Positions 3,543-51,122 of a DNA stretch of 64,000 bases are shown here, in pieces (within the stretch, counting starts at the first letter, position 1; the number at the start of each line of letters is the position of its first letter). The position numbers and the translations under genes were made by a program. The notes under the pieces were generated by a model. The model was not told the origin of the DNA. It searched no databases and was given only the letters and a program-made list of their open reading frames with translations. The stretch comes from Thermohalobacter berrensis. Lineage in GTDB: Bacteria; Bacillota; Clostridia; Tissierellales; Thermohalobacteraceae. Location of the stretch: contig NZ_MCIB01000038.1 in NCBI RefSeq assembly GCF_003609645.1, forward strand, positions 1 through 64,000. Reading direction: 5' to 3'.

Positions 3543-4367
3543 ATGTACTTAGGATGTCATTTATCTATTTCTAAAGGGTATTACAAAGCTGCCAAAACAG
3601 CTTTAGATATAGGAGCCAATACCTTTCAGTTCTTTTCTAGAAATCCTAGAGGAGCTAGGGCCAAAAAATTAGATATGGATGATGTAGAAAAACTAGGAAG
3701 CTTCTTAAAGGAAAATAATTTTGGACCTATTGTAGCCCATGCACCTTATATTTTAAACTTAGCTTCCCATAAAGGTAAAACTTGGGAACTAGCCAAACGA
3801 GTAATAAAAGAAGATATGGATAGATTAGAAAAAATACCTTGCCCCTATTTTGTTTTCCACCCAGGAAATCATCTAGGAAAAGGAATAGAGTATGGAATAG
3901 AAAGGATAGCTGAAGGATTAAATGAGATAATAACAGGGAATGAAAATACTATGATATTATTAGAAACAATGTCTGGTAAGGGAACTGAAGTTGGATATAA
4001 ATTTGAACAAATAAAGGGAGTAATTGATAAAGTTAAATATTCTGAATTATTAGGAGTTTGTCTAGATACTTGTCATATATATTCAGCAGGATATGATATA
4101 GTAAATGATTTAGACAATGTTTTAGAAGAATTTGATAATATTATTGGTATCGATAAATTAAAGGCTATACATTTAAATGACAGCATGAAAGATTTTAATA
4201 GTAAAAAGGATAGACATGAAAAGATAGGTGAAGGGACTATAGGAATTGAAGGTATAAAGAATATAATAAAACATCCTCAATTAAAAGATGTACCTTTCCT
4301 ATTAGAGACTCCTAATGATGTTGATGGTTATGAAAGTGAGATAAAGTTATTAAAAGAATTAAAATAA
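3543..4367 (+). CDS. nfo: endonuclease IV (AP endonuclease)
   Basis: Zn-dependent AP endonuclease of base-excision repair, 274 residues, the usual length. It cuts 5' of abasic sites. The family shape is clear: GCHLSISKGY at the start, VAHAPYILNLAS, VFHPGNH, LLETMSGKGTEVG, GVCLDTCHIYSAGYD, and AIHLNDSMKDFNSKKDRHEKIGEG with the metal-binding His/Asp/Glu residues. GAGGTG sits upstream of the ATG. A terminator follows and the upstream gene is divergent, so it is a single-gene unit. Confidence 0.95.
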   Translation: MYLGCHLSISKGYYKAAKTALDIGANTFQFFSRNPRGARAKKLDMDDVEKLGSFLKENNFGPIVAHAPYILNLASHKGKTWELAKRVIKEDMDRLEKIPCPYFVFHPGNHLGKGIEYGIERIAEGLNEIITGNENTMILLETMSGKGTEVGYKFEQIKGVIDKVKYSELLGVCLDTCHIYSAGYDIVNDLDNVLEEFDNIIGIDKLKAIHLNDSMKDFNSKKDRHEKIGEGTIGIEGIKNIIKHPQLKDVPFLLETPNDVDGYESEIKLLKELK

Positions 4368-4410
4368 TTACTTAATTTATAACTTACAAAATAAACGATA
4401 GAGATTACAT

Positions 4411-4440
4411 AAGGCACCTACTTAATAGGTGCCTTATTAT
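4411..4440 (+). terminator. intrinsic terminator after nfo
   Basis: AAGGCACCTA and TAGGTGCCTT form a perfect 10-bp stem with a 5-base loop, followed by ATTAT. Confidence 0.75.
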
Positions 4441-4469
4441 AGCTTTTGTGGGAAAATATTACATAAATA

Positions 4470-27944: not shown

Positions 27945-29210
27945 ATGACTGAAGCTATCAAGGTTAAATCACTATATTTTGGATATGGAGACAATCATGT
28001 TTTAAAGGATATTAACTTTACAATTAAGAAAGGTGACTTTGTAAGTATTATAGGGCCTAATGGTTCTGGAAAATCTACATTACTAAAGAATATCGCAAAT
28101 ATATTAAAACCTGAAAAGGGAATAATAGAAGTAGATGGAAAGAATATTATAGACTATAGTGTTAAAGAATTAGCAAAAAAAATAGCATTAGTTCCCCAAG
28201 ATACCCATATTGCATATGAGTTTAATGTATTTGATATTGTTTTAATGGGGAGAAATCCATATTTAAAAAGATTTGAAAGAGAAACTGATAAAGATTTTCA
28301 AATAGCCAAAGAGTCTTTAAAATTAACAGATACCCTTCATCTAAAAGATAAGGGAATTAATAATATAAGTGGTGGTGAAAGACAGAGAGTAATAATATCT
28401 AGGGCCCTTGCTCAACAGCCCAAGATACTATTATTAGATGAACCTACTTCACATTTAGATATTAATCATCAAATAGATATATTATCATTATTACAAAAAC
28501 TTAATAAAGAAAAGGAAATGACTATTGTTGTAGTAATACATGATATTAACCTTGCTGCACGGTTTAGCAATAAGATTATATTACTAAATAAAGGAGAAGT
28601 ATTAAGTATTGGTAATCCTAAAGAGGTTATAAACTATAATAACCTAGAAAATACTTATAATTTAGATATGATTATAACCGATAATCCCTATACAAATAGT
28701 CCCTATATTATTCCTCTTACATCTAAAGAAAAAAACAACTATAGAAAGATTAACAAGAAAGTTCATGTAATCTGTGGTGGAGGTACTGGTGGGGAAGTAC
28801 TTAATAAACTTGACCTATTTGGTTATAGATTTTCTGTAGGAGTTATAAACATTGGAGATTCAGACTGGCAACTTGGCAAGAAATTATCAGCAGAATTAAT
28901 TGAAGAAATGCCATTTACAGGTATAACGGACAAAGCCTATAAAAAAAATGTTGCCACTATGGAAAAAAGTGATGTAGTAGTATTAACAAGTGTTCCATAT
29001 GGTAAAGGTAACTTTAAAAATCTTGAAGCTGCATATAAGGCTTTAGAGAAAGGGAAACCTGTATATCTTATAGACAATTATCAAAAGTATAAAAGATTCG
29101 ATTATGTTAATGGCAAAGCAAAGAAAATTTTGGATGACATGAAGAAAAAAGGCCTTAAACTAGTTAACTCTGTTGATGAATTATTATTAATGTTAAAAAA
29201 ACATGTATAA
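27945..29210 (+). CDS. btuD: BtuD-like ABC ATPase with extra C-terminal domain
   Basis: ATPase of 421 residues. Residues 1-255 are a complete FecE/BtuD-type domain: Walker A IGPNGSGKSTLLKN, Q-loop LVPQDTH, signature NISGGERQRVIISRAL, Walker B LLLDEPTSHLD, H-loop VIHDIN. From about 270 to 421 a second domain begins KKVHVICGGGTGG and has alternating strands and helices (SVGVINIGDSDWQL, VVVLTSVPYGKGN, GKPVYLIDNY), like a small Rossmann-type fold. Plain BtuD ends near 250. Start: GGAGTGA before the ATG at 27945; longer in-frame readings overlap btuC. The extra domain may bind a nucleotide or corrinoid, but this is inference. Confidence 0.87.
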   Translation: MTEAIKVKSLYFGYGDNHVLKDINFTIKKGDFVSIIGPNGSGKSTLLKNIANILKPEKGIIEVDGKNIIDYSVKELAKKIALVPQDTHIAYEFNVFDIVLMGRNPYLKRFERETDKDFQIAKESLKLTDTLHLKDKGINNISGGERQRVIISRALAQQPKILLLDEPTSHLDINHQIDILSLLQKLNKEKEMTIVVVIHDINLAARFSNKIILLNKGEVLSIGNPKEVINYNNLENTYNLDMIITDNPYTNSPYIIPLTSKEKNNYRKINKKVHVICGGGTGGEVLNKLDLFGYRFSVGVINIGDSDWQLGKKLSAELIEEMPFTGITDKAYKKNVATMEKSDVVVLTSVPYGKGNFKNLEAAYKALEKGKPVYLIDNYQKYKRFDYVNGKAKKILDDMKKKGLKLVNSVDELLLMLKKHV

Positions 29211-29223
29211 AGAAGGTGATTTG

Positions 29224-30045
29224 ATGGCATATAAGCTAATTGCAGTTGATATGGATGGTACACTTCTTAATAGTAACAAGGAAGTATCATCAAAAAATAA
29301 AAATGCATTAAAAGTTGCAACAGAAAAAGGTATACAAGTAGTTATAACTACAGGGAGGATTTTTACATCTGCTAGGTATTATGCAAAATTATTAGGATTA
29401 ATAACACCTATCATATCTAATAATGGTGCTTACATATGTGAATACCATAGAAATAATGTTTTATATGAAAATCCCATTAGAAATTATGAATTAAAGGAAG
29501 TAATAAAAGATATTGAAGAAGAGGGAATGTACTATCATTTTTACGGGAATGATACTTTTTATACAAAAGAATTAGACTACACATCTAAGGAGTTATATGA
29601 ATGGAATAAAGAACAGAAGCCAGGTGATAAAATTAATATTGAAGTTTTAGAGAATCCTTTAAATTTTATAGAAGAAAAAGACCCTGATATATACAAATTG
29701 GTTGTTATTGATGAGAATCAAGATAAATTAAAATATATTAGGCAGAAACTAAGTATAAATGATAATATTGAAATTGTTAGTTCTTGGAGTAATAATGTAG
29801 AGGTAATGAATAAAGGAGTATCAAAGGGGTCAGCACTAAAAGAATTGTGTAAAATATTTAACATAAAAAGGGAAGAAGTTATAGCTATAGGAGATCATCA
29901 AAATGACCTTTCTATGATAGAGTTTGCAGGTACAGGTATTGCAATGGGAAATGCAGAAGATGAGATTAAGAAAAAAGCAAAATACATAACAGATACAAAT
30001 GATAATGATGGAGTAGCTAAGGCTTTAAAAGAATTAGTGTTTTAA
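29224..30045 (+). CDS. Cof-type HAD-superfamily phosphatase
   Basis: Haloacid dehalogenase-type phosphatase of 273 residues. Motif I is VDMDGTLLNS, motif II TTGRIF, motif III the Lys in MNKGVSKGSALKEL, and motif IV GDHQNDLSMIEFAG; the C2 cap fills about 85-190. Cof-type enzymes hydrolyse sugar phosphates, FMN or PLP; which one is not readable. The ATG at 29224 has GAAGGTGA upstream. It lies 13 bases after btuD and ends the corrinoid operon; a role there is uncertain. Confidence 0.85.
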   Translation: MAYKLIAVDMDGTLLNSNKEVSSKNKNALKVATEKGIQVVITTGRIFTSARYYAKLLGLITPIISNNGAYICEYHRNNVLYENPIRNYELKEVIKDIEEEGMYYHFYGNDTFYTKELDYTSKELYEWNKEQKPGDKINIEVLENPLNFIEEKDPDIYKLVVIDENQDKLKYIRQKLSINDNIEIVSSWSNNVEVMNKGVSKGSALKELCKIFNIKREEVIAIGDHQNDLSMIEFAGTGIAMGNAEDEIKKKAKYITDTNDNDGVAKALKELVF

Positions 30046-30072
30046 GTACATAATAAGTTGAAATTATTTAAT

Positions 30073-30110
30073 AAAAACGCTGGTGGATTTATAATCCATC
30101 AGCGTTTTTA
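30073..30110. terminator. bidirectional terminator between HAD and SOD genes
   Basis: A stem of about 16 bp (arms begin AAAAACGCTG and end CAGCGTTTTT, one wobble) lies between convergent genes, with A and T runs on both sides. Confidence 0.85.
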
Positions 30111-30130
30111 CTTTTAATTAAAATAAGAGA

Positions 30131-30640
30131 TTAGTAACAAGGTATATTTGGGGGTATACATCTAATTATTCCACATGCCAGTCTTTTTCCAGCATCTCCA
30201 GCAGGTTGTGTTCTATAGTCATCTGGATTTTTATGGATTATTATTGACTTACCTACTATGTCAGAAACTTTAAATGCATTTGTAAAGAAACTCATAATTG
30301 CTCTCCCATTGTTTGAGAAGAGTACAGGGAAATCACCAACGTGATTACCGTGGGGCTGATTTGTTGGGTTAAAGTGTTCTCCAGCATCTTTGAAAGGCTC
30401 CTCTGGGTCTCCTACATTACAGTTTCCAAATTCGTGTATATGAAACCCGTGTGGTCCTATAGGATCTTCATCATCACTAGCAGGTTGATAGGGTGGAAGA
30501 CCAGCTACATTCACATAAACCATTGCTCCTCCGGGAACATCTCTAAAATAGACTACTCCTCTTAATTGTGGGGCTAAGGGACCTCCCCTAATATAGGCTA
30601 CTGCAAATGAACAAGGTATCTTTGTTCTAATATGAATCAC
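30131..30640 (-). CDS. sodC: Cu/Zn superoxide dismutase-family protein
   Basis: About 166-169 residues. The Cu/Zn SOD ligands are present in order: HIH in GPHGFHIHEFGNC, EHFNP, PHGNHVGDF with the second His and the Asp, and IIIHKNPDDY; the signature GDAGKRLACGII with the active-site Arg and disulfide Cys follows. SOD would dismute superoxide. No signal peptide is visible, unusual for bacterial SodC. The frame can start at GTG (30640), but that codon lies inside the ribosome site AAGGGAGGTG; an ATT at 30631 has ideal spacing. Convergent with the HAD gene. Confidence 0.82.
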   Translation of the reverse strand: MIHIRTKIPCSFAVAYIRGGPLAPQLRGVVYFRDVPGGAMVYVNVAGLPPYQPASDDEDPIGPHGFHIHEFGNCNVGDPEEPFKDAGEHFNPTNQPHGNHVGDFPVLFSNNGRAIMSFFTNAFKVSDIVGKSIIIHKNPDDYRTQPAGDAGKRLACGIIRCIPPNIPCY

Positions 30641-30825
30641 CTCCCTTCATATTAACTTATGTTAGTAATTTTATTTATGTTAATTAATAAATCTTCAAAA
30701 TACCATGAAGTTGAATAATTATGTTTTTCGTTTAAAATACTAGTTTTATAAATAAATTTAATTATTTTTGGAAAATAAAAGGAATTAGATAAATAATTAA
30801 AATAAAAAAGTCTGGAGGAATAACT

Positions 30826-31755
30826 ATGAGACAGAGAAGGATTAAGGAACCTATTGTATCAATTACTAAAAATTCTAATGAGGCTAATTCACTTGAAGAA
30901 AACCTTAATAATTTACCTATGGAAAGGATAATTAGAAAAGGTGATAAAGTAGTAATAACTCCTAATTGGGTAAAAGCAAAGGAGCCCTCTTCTGGTACAG
31001 TTGTAGGACCAGCAACTTTGGATAAACTTATTAAAATTATAAAAAAGTTTAAACCGAGATCTATTGTAATTGCAACTGGTTCGGGGGGAGATCCAACAGA
31101 TAAGGTGATGAAGCATGTAGGTTATGATAAGGTAATAGAAGAAAATGGTGTAGATTTTGTAGATTTAAATTATGGTCCTTATGTAGAAATTAACTTAAAT
31201 CATGATTATCCTCCATCTACAAAATTAAATAAACTATATGAAGAAATGGATGTGTTAATATCATTTACCCAACTTAAGATGCATGAGGAAGCAACTATAA
31301 GTGCCGGAATAAAAAATATTGCGTTAGGATGGCCACCGGCAGAAATACATGGATTTCCCAAAAAAGCTTTAGGAATACATGAAGATTTACACCATTTTAT
31401 AGTAGCAATGATTGAAAAAATGCCTATAGATTTAACTATAATTAGCGCAGATAAGGCAATGATTGGAACAGGGCCATCAGATGGTAAACCGGTAGATACC
31501 CCAGGTCTTATTATCTCTGGTACTGATCCTGTAGCATGTGACGTTGTAGGAGCTAGACTTTTAGGCTTTTTACCTCAAGCAGTCCATTATTTATATGAAT
31601 TGTATAAAAAGGGATTAGGAGAAGCTGACCTTGAAAAGGTTAATATTAAAGGAATTCTACTAGAAGAAGCAGAAAGATTGTTTACAAAGGCTGCATATAA
31701 TAAAGAGACTGTATTAGACAATAAAAGAATAAAACCAATTCATGGTAATCAGTAG
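30826..31755 (+). CDS. DUF362 protein without ferredoxin domain
   Basis: Protein of 309 residues matching DUF362. Typical pieces are KGDKVVITPNWV, SIVIATGSGGDPTDKVMKHVGYDKVI, LISFTQLKMHEEATISAGIKNIALGWP and ISGTDPVACDVVGARLLGF. Unlike the second DUF362 gene at 35.1 kb it has no cysteine motif for Fe-S clusters. CTGGAGGA precedes the ATG. Biochemical function is unknown. Confidence 0.8.
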   Translation: MRQRRIKEPIVSITKNSNEANSLEENLNNLPMERIIRKGDKVVITPNWVKAKEPSSGTVVGPATLDKLIKIIKKFKPRSIVIATGSGGDPTDKVMKHVGYDKVIEENGVDFVDLNYGPYVEINLNHDYPPSTKLNKLYEEMDVLISFTQLKMHEEATISAGIKNIALGWPPAEIHGFPKKALGIHEDLHHFIVAMIEKMPIDLTIISADKAMIGTGPSDGKPVDTPGLIISGTDPVACDVVGARLLGFLPQAVHYLYELYKKGLGEADLEKVNIKGILLEEAERLFTKAAYNKETVLDNKRIKPIHGNQ

Positions 31756-49348: not shown

Positions 49349-49386
49349 AAAAAGTTCTTTAGCCATATGGCTAAAGAACTTTTTTT
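49347..49386. terminator. 40-base perfect palindromic terminator
   Basis: A perfect 20-bp inverted repeat without spacer bases: seven A, GTTCTTTAGCCAT, then its complement ending in seven T. It can terminate on both strands. The permease 2 stop (49346) overlaps its first A residues. Confidence 0.9.
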
Positions 49387-49520
49387 ATAAGTATTTTTTT
49401 TGGTATAATCTAAATAAGAGGTAATATATATTTAATAAAGAAAGAAACAAATACTACCTTTATTATGCTCTTCATTTTCAAAGTTTCCACTCTATTAATG
49501 TAAAATTCGAGGTGAATAAA

Positions 49521-50899
49521 ATGAAGTTAGGATTTGAGTTAACACTTGAACAGACTCAAAAATTAGTCATGACACCCCAATTAAGACAAGCTATACAGAT
49601 ACTCCAGTTTAATAATCAAGAATTACTAGAGTATATAGATACTCAAATAGAGATAAACCCACTATTAGAAATAGATTTTGAGGGAGGACTTTACGAAAGT
49701 TTAAAAGATAAAGATAATAATCAAGATGAAATCGATTGGAAAGAGTATTTAGGTGAATATGATGATATTAGTTATAGAAATTTTAGTTATAAAAATAATG
49801 ATGATATAAACTATGAGAACTTTGTTTCCACAAAAACCTCATTAAAAGAGCACTTGATGTTTCAGTTAAACCTAAGTCTTTTTAAAGAAGAACATAAAAG
49901 AATTGGTAGACTAATAATTGAAAATATTGATAAGAATGGTTACCTAATTACAGATATCGATGAATTCCAAAGGTCTTTAGATGTAGATAGAAAGGATGTT
50001 GAAAACGTTTTAAAAATTATTCAGACCTTTGATCCTGTTGGAGTAGGGGCTAGGAATATTAAAGAGTGTCTAACTATTCAATTAAAAGCTAATAAAATTG
50101 ATGATCCTATTGTTTACAAAATAGTTGAGAACCATTTAGAAGATATTGCAAAAATAAGTTATCTAAAATATCTAAAAAGTTAAACATATCTTTGAAAGAA
50201 ACACAGAAAGTATGTGATTTAATAAAAACATTAGAACCAAAGCCAGGGAGAGGATTCATACATGAAAGTGACGATTTAAAGTATATAGTACCAGATATTA
50301 TATTAGAAATTGTAGACGGAGAATTTATAGTACAAGTAAAAGATACTACTGCCCCTAGGCTTAAAGTTAATAAATTTTACAAGGAGCTATTACAGAAAAC
50401 TAAAGATGGGAATATATCAGACTATGTAAACAGTAAGTTGAATTCTGCCCTATGGATTATTAAAAGCATAGAACAAAGAAGAATGACCCTTTATAAAGTT
50501 GCCAATTCCATTGTTAAATTTCAAAAAGATTTTTTTACTAAGGGAAAAATTGCCTTGAAACCTCTTACTCTTAAGGATGTAGCAGATGATATAGATGTAC
50601 ATGAGTCCACAGTAAGTAGAGCAATAAATGGAAAATATATTCAGACCCCCAGAGGTATATTTGAACTTAAATTTTTCTTTTCAAACGGAATATCTAGTAA
50701 AAATGGAGATATATCTACAACTAGTATAAAAACTATGATTAAAGATTTAATAGAAAGTGAAGATCCTAAAAAGCCTTTAAGTGACCAAAAAATTGTTAAT
50801 AAATTGAAAGAAAAAAATATAAAAATATCAAGAAGAACAGTAGCCAAATATCGTGATGAATTAAATATACCTTCTTCTACTTTAAGAAGAAGATTTTAG
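49521..50899 (+). pseudogene. rpoN: RNA polymerase sigma-54 factor, frameshifted
   Basis: Sigma-54 split by one -1 frameshift. The first part (49521-50183) has the activator-interacting region MTPQLRQAIQILQFNNQELLEYI and most of the core-binding domain (TFDPVGVGARNIKECL). It stops at TAA 50181. The continuation is in the next frame (from about 50162 to 50899): SKISKKLNISLKETQKVCDLIKTLEPKPGRGF, the helix-turn-helix TLKDVADDIDVHESTVSRAI and the RpoN box RRTVAKYRDEL. Comparison with the family suggests one base is missing near 50160-50164. It could be a real mutation, an assembly error or programmed slippage. GAGGTGAATAA precedes the ATG at 49521. Confidence 0.85.
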
Positions 50900-51084: not shown

Positions 51085-51122
51085 ATGGGACAGAAACTGA
51101 CAACATGGACACAAAGTGTCCA
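51085..51122 (+). promoter_or_regulatory. CggR operator
   Basis: ATGGGACA-gaaac-TGAC and GGACA-caaag-TGTCC match the Bacillus CggR operator pattern GGGAC-N6-TGTC repeated twice. It lies between the -10 and the cggR start, so bound CggR would block elongation of the glycolytic operon. Confidence 0.75.

Follow-up and report, generated by a model that had tools for sequence, protein, structure and literature searches.

The locus considered here raises the question of whether Thermohalobacter berrensis has a working sigma-54 and, if its gene for this factor, rpoN, is broken, what broke it. At face value, the genome record describes a species without sigma-54 control of amino-acid fermentation, but the activators and the promoters of the same genome say the opposite. 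Here, we analysed the window, a stretch of 64,000 nucleotides that is part of contig C38 and has a GC content of 30%, together with further DNA from this genome and with genomes of relatives. It is very probable that rpoN carries a private single-base contraction, which is either a consensus error or a very recent mutation.

The rpoN gene stands alone on the forward strand, preceded by a terminated ABC-transporter operon and followed at 51105 by the next gene. The likely terminator of the upstream operon is a perfect inverted repeat on the forward strand [49349-49384], which has 18-nt arms (100% complementary) and a T run at its end. The gene at 51105 opens a run that presumably contains glycolytic genes. 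The sequence of rpoN can be described as composed of two parts, both on the forward strand. The 5′ part is in frame 0; its reading frame is open from 49512, has its start codon at ATG 49521, behind a Shine-Dalgarno-like GAGGTG [49509-49514] that was read in the sequence, and ends at TAA 50181-50183. The 3′ part is in the -1 frame, which is open over [50129-50899]. Jointly, the two parts span the sigma-54 domains AID, CBD and DBD of Pfam, in that order. The AID (PF00309) corresponds to segment [49539-49673], while the core-binding domain, CBD (PF04963), is matched in two pieces, with profile positions 1-114 in the 5′ part, up to 50162, and 112-185 in the 3′ part, at [50153-50380]. The 3′ part holds the rest of the CBD, the DNA-binding domain, DBD (PF04552, [50420-50893]), and the intact RpoN box SRRTVAKYR (consensus ARRTVAKYR) [50828-50854], which aligns to solved sigma-54. 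The sequences of solved sigma-54 chains in the PDB match both parts in the correct order. What the gene does not have is a single continuous reading frame, as it stops at 50181 and goes on in the -1 frame, exactly as the initial annotation had claimed. No second sigma-54 gene was found in the genome (2.76 Mb, 40 contigs). When compared with RpoN/SigL of Clostridia, as described in PMC6615313 and PMC6510779, the gene has the same AID, CBD, DBD and RpoN box, but its frame is broken inside the CBD.

The position of the break was located by alignment with 29 relatives, 28 of them distinct. The consensus of the relatives in this region is mostly L-E-D-(V/I)-(A/G)-x-N-(R/K)-(L/I); the Asn is found in 29 of 29, and the residue that follows it is Arg or Lys in 29 of 29. 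In rpoN, frame 0 reads HLEDIA up to 50150, with an Ala codon [50148-50150] that fits the family, and the -1 frame reads NKLSKISKKLNIS from 50153, where the Asn codon [50153-50155] fits. Consequently, the change from frame 0 to frame -1 is placed at a run of A's on the forward strand [50150-50154], directly 5′ of the invariant Asn. The frame-0 residues after this run, ISYLKYLKS, match no relative, and codon-usage scores, which have a coarse resolution, leave frame 0 in favour of frame -1 between about 50150 and 50190. Two other positions had been proposed, both of them downstream of the frame change. A missing base near 50160-50164 is about ten bases off, as the -1 frame is already family-like from codon 50153. 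Slippage by -1 at A-AAA-AGT on the forward strand [50174-50180] would leave ISYLKYL where 29 of 29 relatives have Asn and then Arg or Lys, and this site is judged from the sequence and the alignment not to be the place of the frame change.

Apart from the break, the gene is well preserved. Both halves match the RpoN of relatives, with best E-values of 3.9e-77 (N half) and 6.8e-116 (C half). Of the 115 residues that are invariant in the family, rpoN keeps 113, with 36 of 37 in the N part and 77 of 78 in the C part. Two departures are normal, since relatives depart at 0-3 such positions in a leave-one-out count. Against the 28 distinct relatives, the N part has a mean identity of 0.535 (relatives 0.471-0.579), which ranks 12th from the bottom among 29, and the C part has one of 0.664 (relatives 0.615-0.705), which ranks sixth from the bottom among 29. 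Divergence thus appears, by these sequence measures, to have undergone no clear acceleration, and an old pseudogene was rejected, with no further damage, 113 invariant residues kept and identities within the range of the relatives. The earlier statements that both halves are well conserved and that no other damage is visible, so that any loss would be recent, are borne out by these counts.

The break is not shared by relatives. The CBD is present in 143 of the 249 genomes of the order and is in one piece in 140 of the 143. The three exceptions are the genome of T. berrensis, G054, where the break is a run of N in a scaffold gap and which was discarded as a second split rpoN, and G190, where the CBD meets a contig end. 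The only frameshift among them is that of T. berrensis; none was found in the CBD of the other 142 CBD-bearing genomes, in a set where its genus is represented by this one genome. In G215, the CBD is whole and lies in a frame of 388 aa. No report of a recoded rpoN was found in the literature searched. According to PMC3711429, a frame break without a cluster of counterparts in other species is probably an indel mutation or a sequencing error. The rpoN break fits the singleton class of frame-transition genes found there with GeneTack, in which an isolated break is not conserved in the family, and we see no difference between rpoN and this class as it is described in that source. We infer an indel rather than recoding. 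The gene would be an ordinary rpoN (sigL) in which one base was dropped at the A-run 50150-50154, either via strand slippage in the sequenced culture or via a consensus error. Translation would then stop at 50181, after the AID and about three fifths of the CBD. Neither piece as written should act as sigma-54, the 5′ piece because it is without the DNA-binding domain and the 3′ piece because it is without the activator-interacting region and without a good start. A one-base frameshift that is private to this genome, in a gene otherwise well conserved, is nothing out of the ordinary; it is worth keeping for the broken rpoN set against an intact regulon, and because an activator of the sigma-54 system is also broken at an A-run.

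The genome encodes 11 strong sigma-54 activator domains (>130 bits) and, in addition, gives six weaker matches, probably to AAA proteins of other kinds. One of the 11 belongs to a split gene, described below, and the other ten lie in open frames of 452-910 aa. From 9.8 to 16 kb were taken around each of the 11, and -24/-12 promoters were scored by a weighted scan over 641,790 bases of this genome. Sites with scores of at least 14.5 number nine in the 165,789 bases near activators versus one in the 476,001 bases elsewhere, and shuffles give 1.4 such sites for all 641,790 bases. At 10 of the 11 activator loci, a site of at least 13.5 stands 52-84 nt before a Shine-Dalgarno-like start codon, although at locus L104 this start opens a frame of less than 60 aa; at the remaining locus, L114, the weighted scan found no site of at least 13.5. 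Genes downstream of the sites that pass the curated NCBIfam cut-off are those of PrdC and PrdA (proline reductase), butyrate kinase, 2,4-diaminopentanoate dehydrogenase and OrtB (ornithine), CO dehydrogenase and glycerol kinase, while models for aldehyde ferredoxin oxidoreductase, galactarate dehydratase and galactitol PTS EIIC were matched only below it. Such target types are listed for the sigma-54 of Clostridiales in PMC6615313; the proline and ornithine targets match its regulon table, and its consensus TTGGCAT-N5-TTGCT fits the sites found here. Near-perfect -24/-12 motifs with no Shine-Dalgarno start within 400 nt were also seen at L104 (1025, reverse strand) and L115 (6160, forward strand). 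A strict -24/-12 pattern applied to ten whole genomes was too strict to inform and was replaced by the weighted scan; it gave three sites in T. berrensis, none in G001-G003, three in G013, two in the rpoN-less G047 and none in four other rpoN-less genomes.

The activators and the well-placed -24/-12 sites say that sigma-54 works in this lineage. For comparison, rpoN was found in 54 of 60 relatives, and its absence from the other six was confirmed with PF04552. Five of these six are without a strong activator (best E-value 4.9e-9 or weaker), so a long-lost rpoN is expected to leave fewer activators than are seen here. The sixth, G024, a relative in the same order, has 23 Sigma54_activat matches, several of them strong, and neither the protein search nor PF04552 found an RpoN in it. 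This mismatch is either an assembly gap or a real loss. Three other genomes of the genus of G024 have the CBD, and L095 is a short stretch of G024. The opposite mismatch was seen in G031 (L092), a small genome with a diverged RpoN and no strong sigma-54 activator. Since G024 keeps its activator matches with no rpoN found, activators are no proof of a working rpoN; the intact regulon of T. berrensis points to a sigma-54 that is working or was very recently lost.

The first reading of the contraction, to which we give an even chance, is a consensus or assembly error, the living strain having an intact rpoN. The change is a single base in an A-run, neither half of the gene has decayed, and the regulon is intact, including the proline reductase and ornithine fermentation genes that the organism would be expected to need. 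Moreover, the authors of PMC3711429 expect sequencing errors to account for one class of singleton breaks, and a second A-run contraction exists elsewhere in the assembly. The latter emerged from a frameshift census of the same 641,790 bases (23% of the genome, selected in part for nearness to activators), in which nine rows passed and three were taken as broken genes, a lower bound, as the filter drops pairs with a Shine-Dalgarno-like start. They are rpoN, a PRD/EIIA(PTS)-type sigma-54 activator and a GNAT acetyltransferase. One of the other rows is a ThiS/ThiF junction by Pfam, and the remaining five, judged by eye, resemble normal gene junctions. The PRD activator is split by a -1 break (L113, 7602-10414; contig C34, about 28101-30913) at a run of seven A's (C34, about 29,761-29,767). 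Its two pieces have 558 and 383 aa, whereas its closest relatives encode it as a single frame, of 934 and 945 aa. Upstream of the gene are a -24/-12 site and PTS genes. The break in the acetyltransferase (L119, reverse strand, about 3976-4469) is also a -1 break and is not at a long homopolymer. Thus, two of the three breaks are at A-runs, and two affect genes of the sigma-54 system; this second proportion may reflect sampling, as the window had been selected for its rpoN and the activator loci had been retrieved deliberately.

Against an error, the number of frameshifted genes in 642 kb is low, at about three (two at A-runs), and homopolymer errors typically occur in runs longer than five A's. 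Furthermore, a sample of long open frames (435 kb) contains 1,085 A/T runs of 6 and 426 of at least 7, and in this sample, which is biased to intact frames, 364 runs of 7 and 56 of 8 leave the frame unbroken. Strong ABC ATPase domains are whole in 52 of 52 cases. These unbroken runs and whole domains argue against an assembly with widespread homopolymer errors. In automatic annotation, rpoN would be labelled a pseudogene, and users should not infer from such a label a species without sigma-54.

The second reading, which we regard as possible but somewhat doubtful, is that the sequenced strain has really, and very recently, lost sigma-54, perhaps under selection in culture. A precedent is given in PMC7677240: during broth passage of Campylobacter jejuni, all five populations came to contain a fraction of cells that had lost rpoN. 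Within weeks, deletions of rpoN had arisen, and indels had appeared in short A/T tracts of rpoN, flgR and flgS; several genes, rpoN among them, had indels in homopolymeric tracts of 3-5 bases. Such lesions in another AT-rich bacterium make a real mutation quite possible. They resemble the break described here in being sigma-54 lesions that include short homopolymeric indels, but they were shown by resequencing over time, whereas we have the consensus sequence of one genome. Sigma-54 has been lost before in the order, as 106 of its 249 genomes have no CBD match, and the split of the sigma-54-dependent PRD activator could be early decay of the regulon. However, this co-occurrence was seen once, in a sample centred on activators, rpoN has no other damage, and the ten unsplit activators and the promoters are intact. 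If the loss is real, the regulon has been caught at the first moment of losing its master factor.

Expression of sigma-54 by -1 frameshifting or RNA slippage, at 50150-50154 or at 50174-50180, is unlikely. A P-site slip on A-AAA-ATA [50150-50156] would yield exactly the family-like sequence, and the intact regulon would suit a factor made in this way. Neither site is a full X-XXY-YYZ heptamer, however; A-AAA-ATA and A-AAA-AGT allow one-site slippage only, and the slip at 50174 gives the wrong residues. Runs of five A's are short for slippage by RNA polymerase. The fold predicted downstream of the slip site appears ordinary (-7.3 kcal/mol, z -0.56; 55 of 200 shuffled sequences fold at least as well), and such a break is in no relative among the 143 genomes of the order with a CBD. 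Programmed frameshifting is not supported. Loss, assembly error and frameshifting, the options first put forward, are the right ones, and frameshifting is the least likely of the three, given a private break, no predicted structure that stands out and runs of only five A's.

We consider it very improbable that the A-run of rpoN and the A7 run of the PRD activator form a reversible or leaky switch that would turn the whole regulon on or off in a fraction of the cells, or would allow only a small amount of sigma-54. If this were true, proline, ornithine and butyrate metabolism would be switched via tract slippage. In the phase variation of flgR and flgS of C. jejuni (PMC7677240), indels in A/T tracts similarly switch parts of a sigma-54 circuit, but those tracts have 7-8 bases and known reversibility, while rpoN of T. 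berrensis has five A's in one consensus sequence. Split sigma factors exist, such as SigO/RsoA of Bacillus subtilis, and the start codon TTG 50192 lies 8 bases after the stop, yet a sigma-54 assembled from two chains after reinitiation there can practically be dismissed: it is seen in no relative, no Shine-Dalgarno sequence precedes the TTG, and with the break inside the CBD the family-like residues of [50153-50191] would be lost.
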